In this document: one piece after another, positions 3,066 through 24,791 of the stretch
Position numbering within the stretch: the first letter of the stretch is position 1
Layout: every line of letters starts with the position of its first letter
NCBI GenBank assembly: GCA_003696725.1
Contig: RFGI01000006.1
Coordinates: 1-34,769 of the forward strand
Origin: Planctomycetota bacterium
GTDB lineage: Bacteria > Planctomycetota > Phycisphaerae > Phycisphaerales > UBA1924
DNA length: 34,769 bases
Direction: 5' to 3'
Position numbers and translations under genes: made by a program
The notes under the pieces: model-generated
Databases searched by the model: none
What the model was told of the DNA's origin: nothing
The model's input: only the letters and a program-made list of their open reading frames with translations

Positions 3066-4565
3066 CTACGGCCCGAGGGCCGGGGGCATCTCGAACAGCC
3101 CCTCGGGCGCCGGGGAGAGGCCCAGCCCGGCCCGCACCAGGGCCGTGAAGCGTCGCCCCCGCTCCTCATAATTCGTGAATTGATCCCAACTTGCGCAGCC
3201 GGGACTGAGCAGGACCGTCTCTCCGGGCCGGGCCCGGCTCACGGCCTGCGCCACGGCCTGGTCCAGCCCGCCGCACGCCTCGGCCCGGCCACCGGCGTGT
3301 TGGACCAGCCGGGCCAGCGCCGGCCCGGTCGCCCCGATCGTAAAGACGCCCCGGCACCGGGCCGCGGGCCCGACCATCGGCGTCAGATCGACGCCCTTGT
3401 CGAACCCGCCGGCGATGAGGTGGACCGGGATGGACGCGACGACGGGCGAGACACCCGCCCCACCCTCAACCGCGACGACGGGCGAGACGCCCGTCCCACC
3501 CTCCACCCATGCATTGGGCGGGGCGCCGGTTGCGCCGCTGTCCGTGACTTCGGCGAACGCCTGCACGGCGAGGGCTGTCGCCTCGGGCGTGGTGGATTTG
3601 GAGTCATTGACCGCGCGGATCACGCCGCCGTCGCGCTCGACCTCGGCGACGAGCTGCAACCGGTGAGGCAATCCCGTGAACGACGCCGTCGCGTCGCGCA
3701 TCGCGTCTGCATCGTCGTCCGTCCCGCGCATCGCCCGCGTCGCGGCCACGGCAAGTCCCGCATTTCTTCGGTTGTGCGCACCGGCGAGCGCCGTCTCACA
3801 CTCGGGCGCGCCGGCCCGCCCGTCGATGGCCCTATCGCCGGGCCGTTGATGCGCGAGGATCGTCCGCTTGCACCGCTCGTAGTGCGCGAACTCGCCGTGC
3901 CAGTCCAGGTGGTTCGGCGCCACGTTCGTCACCACTGCGACGTGCGGCGACCAGCCGGGCTCATCCCGACGACCCACGAACCAGTCGCCCAGCCAGTACA
4001 GCATCGCGCTGGAGAGCTCCAGCACGACCCAATCCTCCGGCTCGATCTCGTGCGCACGCGGCAAGAGCGACCCCCCTATGTTCCCGCCCAGCCACGTCCG
4101 CCCCGGCGCCAGCCGGCGCAGGATGTGGGCGATCATCGCCGCGGTGGTGCTCTTGCCGGCCGTCCCGGTCACGCCGACGACGCGTCCGCGGTCGGGCAGA
4201 CGCTCGACGAGCAAGCGGATCTCCGTGGTCATGCGTGCGCCGCGTTCGGCGGCTGCGAGGATGAAACGGTTCTCCCACGGCCGGGGCACAGCGGGGCTCA
4301 CCACGACCGTGTCGGCGCCGGCGAAGTCCGCCTCGTCGTGCCCGCCCAGCCGGAGGGTGACGCGCCCCGCGTCGACCAGATCCCGGATCGACGCCAGGGG
4401 CTCGTCGAGCGCCCCGGCGTCGGCGAGGTCCGTCACCAGCACGTCCGCGCCCTGCTCGGCGAGCCAGCGCGCGGCGCCCGCCCCCCCGCCGAAGCGGCCC
4501 AGGCCCATGACCACGACGCGCCGGCCGGCCCACTCCGCGTCCGATGGCGTGCGATCCATCCCCAT
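3066..4565 (-). CDS. murD: UDP-N-acetylmuramoyl-L-alanine--D-glutamate ligase MurD
   Basis: MurD adds D-glutamate to UDP-MurNAc-L-Ala in cytoplasmic peptidoglycan precursor synthesis. The N-terminal Rossmann domain (VVVMGLGRFGGG, about 17-28) is followed by the Mur ligase ATP loop GTAGKST (134-140; the family usually has GTNGKST). Next come NVAPNHLDWH in the central domain and the C-terminal motif HLIAGGFDKGVDL. The 499 residues exceed the usual 440-470. Part of the excess is an in-frame insertion at about 353-377, two copies of a palindromic repeat read as GTGVSPVVA and GAGVSPVVA, just before the C-terminal HLIAGG strand. The frame stays open throughout. A presence in planctomycetes is notable, because peptidoglycan was long disputed in this phylum. 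The start has GGGGCAGGGA upstream. Confidence 0.93.
   Translation of the reverse strand: MGMDRTPSDAEWAGRRVVVMGLGRFGGGAGAARWLAEQGADVLVTDLADAGALDEPLASIRDLVDAGRVTLRLGGHDEADFAGADTVVVSPAVPRPWENRFILAAAERGARMTTEIRLLVERLPDRGRVVGVTGTAGKSTTAAMIAHILRRLAPGRTWLGGNIGGSLLPRAHEIEPEDWVVLELSSAMLYWLGDWFVGRRDEPGWSPHVAVVTNVAPNHLDWHGEFAHYERCKRTILAHQRPGDRAIDGRAGAPECETALAGAHNRRNAGLAVAATRAMRGTDDDADAMRDATASFTGLPHRLQLVAEVERDGGVIRAVNDSKSTTPEATALAVQAFAEVTDSGATGAPPNAWVEGGTGVSPVVAVEGGAGVSPVVASIPVHLIAGGFDKGVDLTPMVGPAARCRGVFTIGATGPALARLVQHAGGRAEACGGLDQAVAQAVSRARPGETVLLSPGCASWDQFTNYEERGRRFTALVRAGLGLSPAPEGLFEMPPALGP
3438..3506. repeat. Two tandem 36-bp copies of the palindromic repeat inside murD
   Basis: The core palindrome GACGGGCG-AGA-CGCCCGTC (3477-3495) is perfect. 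A degenerate copy starts exactly 36 bp earlier at 3441. Both are followed by CCCAC or CCCCAC and a short linker. The orientation relative to the gene is opposite to that in purL. Confidence 0.85.
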
Positions 4566-10790: not shown

Positions 10791-10866
10791 GTGGGCCGGG
10801 CGTCTCGCCCTGTGGGACGGGCGTCTCGCCCGTCGTGGTTGACACAGACAACGGCCGAGACGGCCG
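10791..10866. repeat. Intergenic copies of the GACGGGCG palindromic repeat and a CGGCCG variant
   Basis: Two copies start with GTGGG at 10791 and 10812, 21 bp apart. The second contains the perfect palindrome GACGGGCG-TCT-CGCCCGTC (10816-10834). A related stem CGGCCG-AGA-CGGCCG lies at 10852-10866 with the same 3-nt loop design. The cluster fills most of the gap between the sigma operon and the carbonic-anhydrase-like gene; the rest of 10867-10955 shows nothing I can support. Confidence 0.85.
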
Positions 10867-10969
10867 CTCCACCGGCGGTCCCCGTCCCGGATGACGACCG
10901 AGCGATCCGTCGAACGGGACCTCGCGCCGCTCTGGTCATCCGCGGTCGGCGCCGGTACCGTCCGCCCGC

Positions 10970-21600: not shown

Positions 21601-24600
21601 TCACCAGTCCAGCGCGCCGAAGAACGCCCGCCGCATCGCTTCGAGTGCGACCTCCGCCCGCTCACCGGGCGTGATCAGCGTCAGCCCGTTCAAGCCCGCC
21701 GACGCCCGGCCGACGACGCGCGCCGACGCCCCGGCGCGGCGCAGCGCACCGGCCGTCGCGGGCCCGTCGGCGGCCTCGAGGATGTACGTCGCTGGGCGCT
21801 CGGCGAAGGGGTCGTCCAGGCTCACCTCGGCGCCGACGCCCGACGCGAGGACCATCTCGGCGACCGCGACGCCGGCGCCGCCTTCGGACGCGTCGTGCGC
21901 CGACAGGATCAGTCCGTCTCGGATCGCGGCGTGGACGGCCGCGGCGACGCGCGCCCGCCGTTGGGGCATTGAGCCCTCGCCGTCATCGTCCACGGTCGCC
22001 AGCAGGAGGGCCGATTCGCCCGCGACCGGCGCCCCCTTGAGGTCCATGGTCACGCACCGGTCGATGTCGGGCACGATCCCGACGCCGGTGATCAGCAGCG
22101 TCGGGGGGATCTCGATGGTCTCGCCGGCCTCCGTCGTGAACTGGTTGTTGAGCGAGTCCTTGCCGCTGATGAACGGCGTGCGGTAGGCGATCGCCGCGTC
22201 GTGGCACCCCTCCGCGGCCCGCACCAGCGCCGCGAGGTTCTCCGGCTTCTCGCACGAGGGCCAGCAGAAGTTGTCCAGGATCGCGATGCGCGAGGGGTCC
22301 GCGCCGACGCACACCAGGTTCCGCACGCACTCGTCCACCGCCGACAGCGCCATCAGGTACGGGTCGCCGCCCGCGGCGGGGTCGCCCCCGCTGACATCGA
22401 GCCCCTGCGAGATCGCCAGCCCGCGCGTCGAGCCCGGCGCCGGGCGGATCACCGTCGCGTCGCCCGGGCCGTCACCGCCCGGACCGACCAGGGGCTTGAC
22501 GATCGTGGCGCCCTGCACCTCGTGGTCGTACTGCCGGACGATCCACCGCTTCGACGCGATCGTCGGGTGCGCCAGAAGGGCCAGGAGCGTGCCCGCGACA
22601 GAAGCGTCCCGCCCGGTCTGGATCAACCCGGTGGGACGGGCGTCCCGCCCGTCATCGGACAACCCAGTGGGACGGGCGTCCCGCCCGTCATCGGACAACC
22701 CGGTGGGACGGGCGTCTCGCCCGTCATCGGACAACCCAGTGGGACGGGCGTCTCGCCCGTCTGGCGCATGCCCGGCGCCCGGCCAGACCGCGTCGCGCGT
22801 GCGCCGCGGCAGCCCATCGTGCAGGAAGGCCATGCCCAGCCGACCGACCTCCTCGCCGTGGAACCGGAGGATCAGTTCCCGATCGGGCGTGCCGAACGTC
22901 CCCAGCACCGCGAGCTCGACGTGCTCCTCATCGCAGATCGCGCGGAGCGCGTCGAGCCGGTCCGGCGGGACGGCCAGGACCATCCGCTCCTGCGCCTCGG
23001 AGATCCAGACTTCGCTGTACGTCAGCCCGTTGTACTTGAGCGGGGCGCGGTCCAGGTGCACCTCGGCGCCCAGCGCCTCGCCCATCTCCCCCACGGCGCT
23101 GGAGAACCCGCCGGCGCCGCAGTCCGTAATCGCCGAGTACAGCGGGCCCCCCGCCGCGTCTCGCGCTCGCAGGATCGCGTCGAGCAGTTTCTTTTCCTCG
23201 ATGGGATTCCCGATCTGGACGGCGTGGGCGAACTCGTCGGCGTGCGTGTCGGTCAGCTCGGCGCTGCTGAACGTGGCGCCGTGGATCCCGTCCCGACCGG
23301 TGCGTCCGCCCAGGGCGACGATCAGGTCGCCCGCCCGGGCCTCGCCCGCGATCCGGTCCCGCGGCAACACGCCCACGCACCCGCAGAACACCAGCGGGTT
23401 GCCCACGTACCGGTCGTCGAAGAACACCCCGCCCGAGACCGTCGGGACGCCCATCCGGTTGCCGTAGTCCCGCACGCCCGCCACGACCTGCGTGAGGATC
23501 CGTCTGGGCGCCAGGCAGCCGGCGGGCAGCGTGTCGTCGTCGAAGGAATCGGGGTGCGCGACGCAGAAGACGTCCGTGTTGGCGATGGGCTTGGCCGCGA
23601 GCCCCGTCCCGATGATGTCGCGGATGCACCCGCCGACGCCGGTGGCCGCTCCGCCGTAGGGCTCGATGGCGCTGGGGTGGTTGTGCGTCTCGACCTTCAC
23701 GCACACCGCCAGGTCGTCGTCGAAGGCGATCACGCCCGCGTTGTCCACGAACACGCTCAGGGCCCAATCCAGCCCGTCCTCGATCAGCCGGTGCGTCGCC
23801 GCCGCGACCGTCGAGCGCAAGAGGTTCTCGATCCGCACTGATCCGTCCGGCAGGGCGGTGTGCCCGGGCCGGCCGGACCAGTCGATGCCGTCGGCCGGGC
23901 CTCGGTAGACGATGTCCGCCTTGAGCGTCTTGTGCACGCAATGCTCGGACCAGGTCTGGGCCAGGGTCTCCAGTTCGGCGTCGGTGGGCTCGCGGCCGCG
24001 GTCCCGGAAGTGCTCCCGGATCGCGCGCATCTCGTCGAGCGACAGGAACAGGTGAGCCTCGCGGGAGAGGCGCGCCAGCCCCTCGTCGTCCAAGTCGCGC
24101 ACCGGCACGCGCGTCACCCGGAACGGCTTGGGCTCGGCGTGCGGGAACTCATCGGGGCAGTGCGGCCCGTCGTGGACCGCGTGGATCACCGGGTTGGCCA
24201 GCAGCCGCCGAGCCAGCCGGCGGGCGTCGGCCGGGCTCACCCCGGCGAGGTCGTACCGCCACCCCGTCGACGCCCGCACCCCGGGGACGCCCGTGAGCTC
24301 CTCGACCGCCGCCGCGACGGTCTGCGCCGGCGGGTCCATCACGCCCGGCAGGGGGTGGACCTCCAGGCACGCCGACCCCTCGTCGATCGGGCCGGCGCCG
24401 GTTGTGACGTCCTCCAGAACCGGGTTGGCCAAGAGCGACGCGCCCACCCGATCGGCGTCGGCGTCGGTCAGGGCCCCGTGGATCAGGTACACCCGGGCCA
24501 CGCGAGCCCGCTCGACCGCGACGCCCACCGCCCGCGCCTCGCGCGCCAGGCTCTCGGCCCGCGGATCGGCCAGCCCCGGGCGAACGCGCACCTCGAATCG

Positions 24601-24651
24601 GCGCATGCGGGCGGTGGCGTGGGGCGGCGCGCTGGCGGCGGCTCGGCTCAT
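21601..24651 (-). CDS. purL: Phosphoribosylformylglycinamidine synthase, PurS-PurS-PurL fusion
   Basis: PurL makes FGAM from FGAR, ATP and glutamine-derived ammonia in de novo purine synthesis. The 1016-residue chain begins with two PurS-like repeats (about 16-85, MRRFEVRVRPGLADPRAESL, and 93-165, CLEVHPLPGVMDPPAQTV). A linker and the AIR-synthase-like catalytic halves follow, with THNHPSAIEPYGGAATGVGG near 323 and ISGKDSLNNQF in the second half. There is no C-terminal glutaminase, so a separate PurQ is expected elsewhere. Residues about 627-675 are four 12-residue copies of DGRDARPTGLSD from the palindromic repeat, placed in the linker between the halves. No Shine-Dalgarno is present, but TAGACT (24663-24658, minus) lies six bases before ATG 24651, supporting this start over ATG 24606. 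Confidence 0.95.
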   Translation of the reverse strand: MSRAAASAPPHATARMRRFEVRVRPGLADPRAESLAREARAVGVAVERARVARVYLIHGALTDADADRVGASLLANPVLEDVTTGAGPIDEGSACLEVHPLPGVMDPPAQTVAAAVEELTGVPGVRASTGWRYDLAGVSPADARRLARRLLANPVIHAVHDGPHCPDEFPHAEPKPFRVTRVPVRDLDDEGLARLSREAHLFLSLDEMRAIREHFRDRGREPTDAELETLAQTWSEHCVHKTLKADIVYRGPADGIDWSGRPGHTALPDGSVRIENLLRSTVAAATHRLIEDGLDWALSVFVDNAGVIAFDDDLAVCVKVETHNHPSAIEPYGGAATGVGGCIRDIIGTGLAAKPIANTDVFCVAHPDSFDDDTLPAGCLAPRRILTQVVAGVRDYGNRMGVPTVSGGVFFDDRYVGNPLVFCGCVGVLPRDRIAGEARAGDLIVALGGRTGRDGIHGATFSSAELTDTHADEFAHAVQIGNPIEEKKLLDAILRARDAAGGPLYSAITDCGAGGFSSAVGEMGEALGAEVHLDRAPLKYNGLTYSEVWISEAQERMVLAVPPDRLDALRAICDEEHVELAVLGTFGTPDRELILRFHGEEVGRLGMAFLHDGLPRRTRDAVWPGAGHAPDGRDARPTGLSDDGRDARPTGLSDDGRDARPTGLSDDGRDARPTGLIQTGRDASVAGTLLALLAHPTIASKRWIVRQYDHEVQGATIVKPLVGPGGDGPGDATVIRPAPGSTRGLAISQGLDVSGGDPAAGGDPYLMALSAVDECVRNLVCVGADPSRIAILDNFCWPSCEKPENLAALVRAAEGCHDAAIAYRTPFISGKDSLNNQFTTEAGETIEIPPTLLITGVGIVPDIDRCVTMDLKGAPVAGESALLLATVDDDGEGSMPQRRARVAAAVHAAIRDGLILSAHDASEGGAGVAVAEMVLASGVGAEVSLDDPFAERPATYILEAADGPATAGALRRAGASARVVGRASAGLNGLTLITPGERAEVALEAMRRAFFGALDW
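22627..22770. repeat. Four tandem 36-bp palindromic repeats inside purL
   Basis: Copies begin at 22627, 22663, 22699 and 22735. Each holds GACGGGCG-TCY-CGCCCGTC, and the linker between copies is ATCGGACAACCCRGTGG. The first two have loop TCC and the last two TCT. The last copy is cut short after the palindrome. A 36-bp period equals 12 codons, so the purL frame is unbroken. Confidence 0.95.
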
Positions 24652-24682: not shown

Positions 24683-24736
24683 GTGGGACGGGCGTCCCGC
24701 CCGTCGGCGTCGGTGGGATGACGGCCGACGGCCGTC
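24683..24736. repeat. Two palindromic repeats upstream of purL
   Basis: GACGGGCG-TCC-CGCCCGTC lies at 24687-24705. A variant with perfect arms GACGGCCG-A-CGGCCGTC lies at 24720-24736. Both are preceded by GTGGGA and start 30 bp apart. They sit 20-85 bp from the purL start, so they would be in or beside its promoter. The rest of 24737-24791 shows nothing else I can support. Confidence 0.9.
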
Positions 24737-24791
24737 CCGCCGGCTGGGCGCGGCGCCTCGGCGCTGCCGGGTGATCCGTCAAACAGAACAG

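Follow-up and report, generated by a model that had tools for sequence, protein, structure and literature searches.

GTGG-tagged REP elements in frame within purL of a Phycisphaerales bacterium, with a likely cognate RAYT embedded in valS

The window, a stretch of 34,769 nucleotides from a Phycisphaerales bacterium, carries purL on its minus strand (21604–24651). The gene encodes a protein of 1016 amino acids, with a PurS-like N-terminus, an FGAR-AT linker and two AIRS pairs, that is 54–65% identical to the proteins of 25 relatives. Within purL lie four repeat units, all on the plus strand. In copy 1 (22631–22653), a GTGG tag at 22631–22634 precedes the hairpin GACGGGCG-TCC-CGCCCGTC, which forms the core at 22635–22653. 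Copy 2 (22667–22689, core 22671–22689) also has the loop TCC, and copies 3 (22703–22725, core 22707–22725) and 4 (22739–22761, core 22743–22761) have TCT. Including the 5′ GTGG tag, the array spans 22631–22761 with a start-to-start spacing of exactly 36 bp, and the minus-strand purL frame stays open across it, giving the translation DGRDARPTGLSD. A preliminary description of this DNA had reported four in-frame 36-bp units and the division of loops between copies 1–2 and 3–4, and both observations hold, with cores starting at 22635, 22671, 22707 and 22743. It had also called the unit a 36-bp palindromic repeat; the period is indeed 36 bp, but the palindrome covers only 19 bp, the unit being completed by a 4-nt tag and a 13-nt spacer. 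Before copy 1 stands a degenerate half-unit consisting of a right arm only (22604–22614, plus strand; GCGTCCCGCCC). This is the remnant of a fifth copy, and it is the reason that TRF counts 4.4 copies in purL. The base preceding the GTGG tag in the four units is G, A, G and A, an alternation that suggests growth of the array by duplication of a 72-bp two-unit block.

Across the window, we found 17 matches to the 19-mer with at most three mismatches, where 0.41 were expected. We then surveyed the genome (2.46 Mb in 215 contigs, a metagenome-assembled genome that is 94% complete) by pattern search and inspection of the retrieved stretches. The genome-wide core count that the preliminary description had proposed shows a dispersed element: the exact 13-bp core GGGCGTCYCGCCC occurs 100 times, against 0 for a reversed-pattern control. 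GTGG lies directly 5′ of the left arm in 90 of the 100 cores, and the mirrored CCAC in none. Some untagged cores in ordinary coding sequence (e.g. L151, L156, L169 and L176) were taken as chance matches. The 100 cores group into 67 arrays, and most copies are intergenic. As single-stranded DNA, the element folds into a hairpin with 8-bp arms, a 3-nt loop and an unpaired 5′ GTGG foot (....((((((((...)))))))), −10.3 kcal/mol, z about −4.1 to −4.2), and the unit is free of stops in all six frames. By its sequence features, namely a one-sided GT[AG]G foot, a high and dispersed copy number and inverted copies flanking a RAYT (described below), the purL unit is a polar, GTGG-tagged REP of the RAYT type. 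Among intergenic copies in the window are a single tagged REP upstream of the purL start, within a composite repeat (24683–24705, plus strand), and a pair with a 21-bp period (10791–10834, plus strand). Tandem units of 21 bp are common among intergenic REPs, and a second palindrome, ACGGCCGAGACGGCCGT, lies about 20 bp downstream of most of them in a longer conserved context (window 10791–10900 and 24683–24760).

Twelve REP arrays, distributed over 11 genes of this genome, lie inside open frames that run through them. The carriers are acs, the gene for E2 (dihydrolipoyl transferase), nrdJ, thrC, a prpD-like gene, an amidohydrolase gene, an SDR gene, one ORF (L155), murD, purL and valS. The murD gene lies in the window (3066–4565, minus strand; TIGR01087 286.7 bits, above the cutoff of 211.95) and contains a pair of REP copies, one of them diverged, at a spacing of 36 bp (3441–3499, minus strand); they are read in frame as GTGVSPV and GAGVSPV. 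Across the host proteins, the element is read as GTGVSPV, GRDARPT or GETPVPP. Periods within intragenic arrays are divisible by three without exception (30, 33, 36 and 42); those within intergenic arrays are mostly 21, with 38, 39, 40 and 42 also seen. We looked among the arrays of the genome for an intragenic REP insertion that breaks the frame and found none, three same-strand frame mismatches having been assigned as intergenic on their flanks.

The linker joining the two halves of PurL, where the array falls, is 53 amino acids long here; in 93 relatives it is unconserved and measures 2–39 amino acids. In an AlphaFold2 model built with 25 relatives (mean pLDDT 79.7), residues 628–680, between the last strand of half one and the first helix of half two, have a pLDDT below 50 and are predicted to be disordered. 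Hypervariability and predicted disorder therefore indicate a loop that would tolerate almost anything. The preliminary description had proposed a frame-compatible element in this linker, and both the linker lengths and the model agree with it; the same four copies in all relatives, which it had named as the mark of an ordinary conserved linker, are not what the relatives carry. What it missed is that the element is the GTGG-REP of a RAYT system, present in at least 11 genes and with a likely transposase in valS. In L086, another Phycisphaerales genome, the purL linker contains an independent REP peptide, GGTGVSPV. Long insertions also occur at other purL positions in the relatives G006, G015, G013, G002, G009 and G019 (L348, L349, L350, L351, L352 and L353, respectively), and no REP was seen in the insert sequences that we inspected.

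Only two Y1-transposase matches were found in this genome. One of these RAYTs sits in frame within valS, where neither of its ends carries a stop, on a 3.9-kb contig that ends inside the gene. A plus-strand REP array, the RAYT and a minus-strand REP array follow one another (L143 2822–2918, 2925–3392 and 3393–3471), so arranged that the same GTGG-REP flanks the RAYT in inverted orientation with three copies per side. The frame is open throughout: ValRS sequence gives way to GTGVSPV repeats, these to the RAYT, and GRDARPT repeats lead back into ValRS. The RAYT scores 99.6 bits against NF047646 (cutoff 80). It can be aligned to TnpA-REP of E. coli (4er8), and HVH and YISQNP in its sequence correspond to the HUH-Y core. 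On T. thermophilus ValRS (1gax), the cassette site maps between residues 364 and 376. RAYTs are usually, though not by definition, free-standing genes with their own stop; here the frame continues into valS. In this valS fragment, Pfam identified only tRNA-synthetase and Y1_Tnp domains, with REP-encoded peptides at the cassette ends, and no self-splicing (Hint) domain was found there. Judged from these sequence features, the embedded RAYT is likely the cognate transposase of the GTGG-REP.

In 150 genomes of the family, strong matches to the valS RAYT fall within long open frames, from several hundred to 1,700 amino acids. All 66 embedded RAYT domains inspected read through into recognisable host genes: valS in 28 cases (one site), rdgB in 19 (one site) and leuS in 16 (two sites), the remaining hosts being an hscA/dnaK-type chaperone gene, miaA and kbl. 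A class-wide sample adds a second site in valS, ileS (two sites), purH (four genomes), gcvP, thiE (C-terminal) and DNA methylase or helicase genes. Hosts of the valS, leuS, ileS, purH, gcvP and miaA types that contain the RAYT score above their NCBIfam equivalog cut-offs, as does a thiE host with the RAYT at its C-terminus. In L366, L367 and L369, thiE (thiamine phosphate synthase) continues at its C-terminus into a RAYT, with VGQTFLSA or VGQAFLPV as the REP-like linker between the two. Outside the family of this genome, 51 of 79 RAYT matches lie in frames of at least 400 amino acids. Most of the long frames retrieved class-wide, though not all, are host genes, because high GC opens frames by chance; the long frames around the RAYTs of L338, L342 and L347 are examples that we set aside as GC-driven.

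Embedded RAYTs retain the HxH motif in 65 of 66 cases and the catalytic Y in 64 of 65. Their pairwise dN/dS is 0.12–0.4, usually above that of the host and well under 1, and these substitution patterns show purifying selection on the embedded domains. In the RAYT tree, embedded domains form one group, separate from 19 free-standing RAYTs sampled in the family, and they cluster by host site (11 changes versus 49 when shuffled). In the ValRS tree, by comparison, occupied and empty sites are scattered (16–18 changes versus about 17 when shuffled). Congeners differ in carrying the cassette: G143 and G165 are occupied and G072 is empty, and a second such contrast pairs occupied G177 with empty G071. 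At the same leuS site of G065 and G161, the hosts have a pS of about 0.2, the cassettes have a pS of about 0.7, and the REP peptides differ. The valS site of G074, G053 and G002 (L294, L295 and L296) holds an in-frame Y1 transposase of a different class with a YVLxEQG motif, which resembles class 3 of Quentin et al. 2018 (PMC6006769); the cassettes of this type carry other repeats, EPRPSGSGLH or PLPHGRGS. The valS genes of G082 and G180 (L299 and L303) are mosaic, with a strongly diverged editing domain and nearly identical cassette and catalytic-core parts. General recombination of a mosaic valS could account for that near-identity, so we set this pair aside as a clean case of homing and relied on G065/G161 and on the congeneric occupied and empty pairs. 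Together with the scattered occupancy and the other Y1 class at the valS site, these comparisons favour recurrent, site-faithful re-occupation, which is our best reading of the sequence data; scattered occupancy, congeneric differences and cassette replacement disfavour simple vertical descent. Because occupancy is scattered on the ValRS tree, the behaviour of the embedded RAYTs resembles homing without splicing.

Several other explanations bear on these observations. The purL array could simply encode a conserved PurL linker of the ordinary kind, or a functional peptide under selection, and its stop-free translation in frame agrees with this; the variation of the linker in sequence and length among the 93 relatives, for which we dropped the conserved-linker reading, and the predicted disorder of the region make the idea highly improbable, and the reading of the same REP DNA in differing frames elsewhere (GTGVSPV, GETPVPP) disfavours a selected peptide. 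The REPs might instead have been moved by another enzyme, with the valS RAYT a mere passenger. The cognate role of the valS RAYT is a prediction, the assembly is incomplete and could have lost an enzyme, and a second RAYT does exist on contig C191 (L144 1–760), within a frame that is still open where the contig starts. The repeat adjoining it, TGGGGCAGGCCTCCGTGCCTGCC, differs from the GTGG-REP, however, for which reason we dropped the C191 RAYT as the cognate enzyme, whereas identical REPs surround the valS RAYT in the usual REP/RAYT layout; we regard a different mover as improbable. Most carriers are metagenome assemblies, which leaves room for the notion that RAYTs read in frame arise from chimeric assembly or represent pseudogene insertions in decay, with the real enzyme elsewhere. 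This is scarcely credible given that dozens of genera, with the single-contig genomes G082 (valS) and G154 (rdgB) among the carriers, have embedded RAYTs at the very same sites, and given frames without stops, retained catalytic residues, the low dN/dS and host ORFs above equivalog cut-offs; moreover, a valS search in the family returned one full-strength valS per carrier besides a distant paralogue of about 30% identity. We consider it quite likely that the purL array is an in-frame REP of a REP/RAYT system whose RAYT resides in valS, and that in-frame cassettes of this kind occur across the class.

Parts of this picture have precedents. Di Nocera et al. 2013 (PMC3733652) describe some REPs in frame in housekeeping genes, including tRNA synthetase genes, and also in Opitutus terrae, a PVC member, so the purL array alone is another case of a known type. 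Like the GTAG-tagged REPs of that study, the elements described here are short tagged hairpins that are dispersed, often clustered and in some cases in frame, but the tag is GTGG, and the transposase gene is also in frame in its hosts, where the intragenic cases described there are REPs alone. The HUH-Y core and the flanking REPs, inverted and bearing a GT[AG]G foot, are shared with RAYT/TnpA-REP REPtrons (PMC6006769, NF047646, 4er8), whereas described RAYTs are free-standing genes and the embedded ones lack a terminal stop and read on into the enzymes that host them. Rickettsia palindromic elements are likewise palindromic selfish DNA in frame in protein genes; their sequence is unrelated, and according to PMC3733652 the CGTC-type repeats flank no transposase, unlike the GTGG-tagged elements with their RAYT. 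Inteins and homing endonucleases offer a further parallel, with a nuclease in frame, recurrent sites in essential enzymes and patchy occupancy. In contrast to inteins, however, no splicing domain was seen in the valS fragment of this genome, the embedded cassettes lie in variable loops rather than active sites, and the nuclease here is a single-strand HUH enzyme. In the open-licence literature, we found no account of a RAYT gene in frame in essential enzymes, an absence that is weak evidence, and no mention of REP-encoded peptides.

We infer the following course of events. The RAYT, a single-tyrosine HUH nuclease, would act on its REP as a single-strand nuclease, and the copy in valS would be the one that mobilises the GTGG-REP. 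New REP copies in genes would survive only where they kept the frame and fell in a loop able to absorb them; in purL, 36-bp units would then have multiplied in tandem, adding about 48 codons to the linker. Translation presumably yields a host enzyme with the cassette as an additional domain, the chimeric host–RAYT enzymes being putatively functional, so that any stop codon or frameshift arising in the RAYT would disrupt the essential gene around it as well. Cassettes may persist in essential genes since such mutations would cost the host too much there, and such residence would be favoured through protection of the element. We give an even chance to the fuller reading of a RAYT lineage that leads a splice-free, intein-like life at recurrent surface-loop sites (valS, leuS, ileS, rdgB, purH and others), translated as a domain of host proteins so that its breakage harms the host, with solo REP arrays such as that in purL as by-products.

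Embedding might, alternatively, reflect mere tolerance in hypervariable loops and not protection, and tandem growth could proceed by plain slippage or recombination with no involvement of the RAYT. The embedded RAYT could also be domesticated, kept for a service to the host such as regulation or DNA repair and not self-propagating. Low copy number, purifying selection and site fidelity are consistent with domestication, and RAYTs elsewhere have been discussed as domesticated; scattered occupancy, differences between congeners and the replacement of one cassette by a different one at a single site argue against it, and we consider it rather unlikely.

At the level of individual proteins, REP-encoded peptides (GRDARPT, GTGVSPV and similar) are one origin of unusual insertions in the sequences of such proteins. 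Why RAYTs endure as genes of low copy number is debated; their in-frame residence at recurrent sites in essential enzymes of dozens of genera suggests a site where a transposase is hardly lost by mutation. If this is true, a bacterial class would use aminoacyl-tRNA synthetases and purine enzymes that work with an internal nuclease domain.
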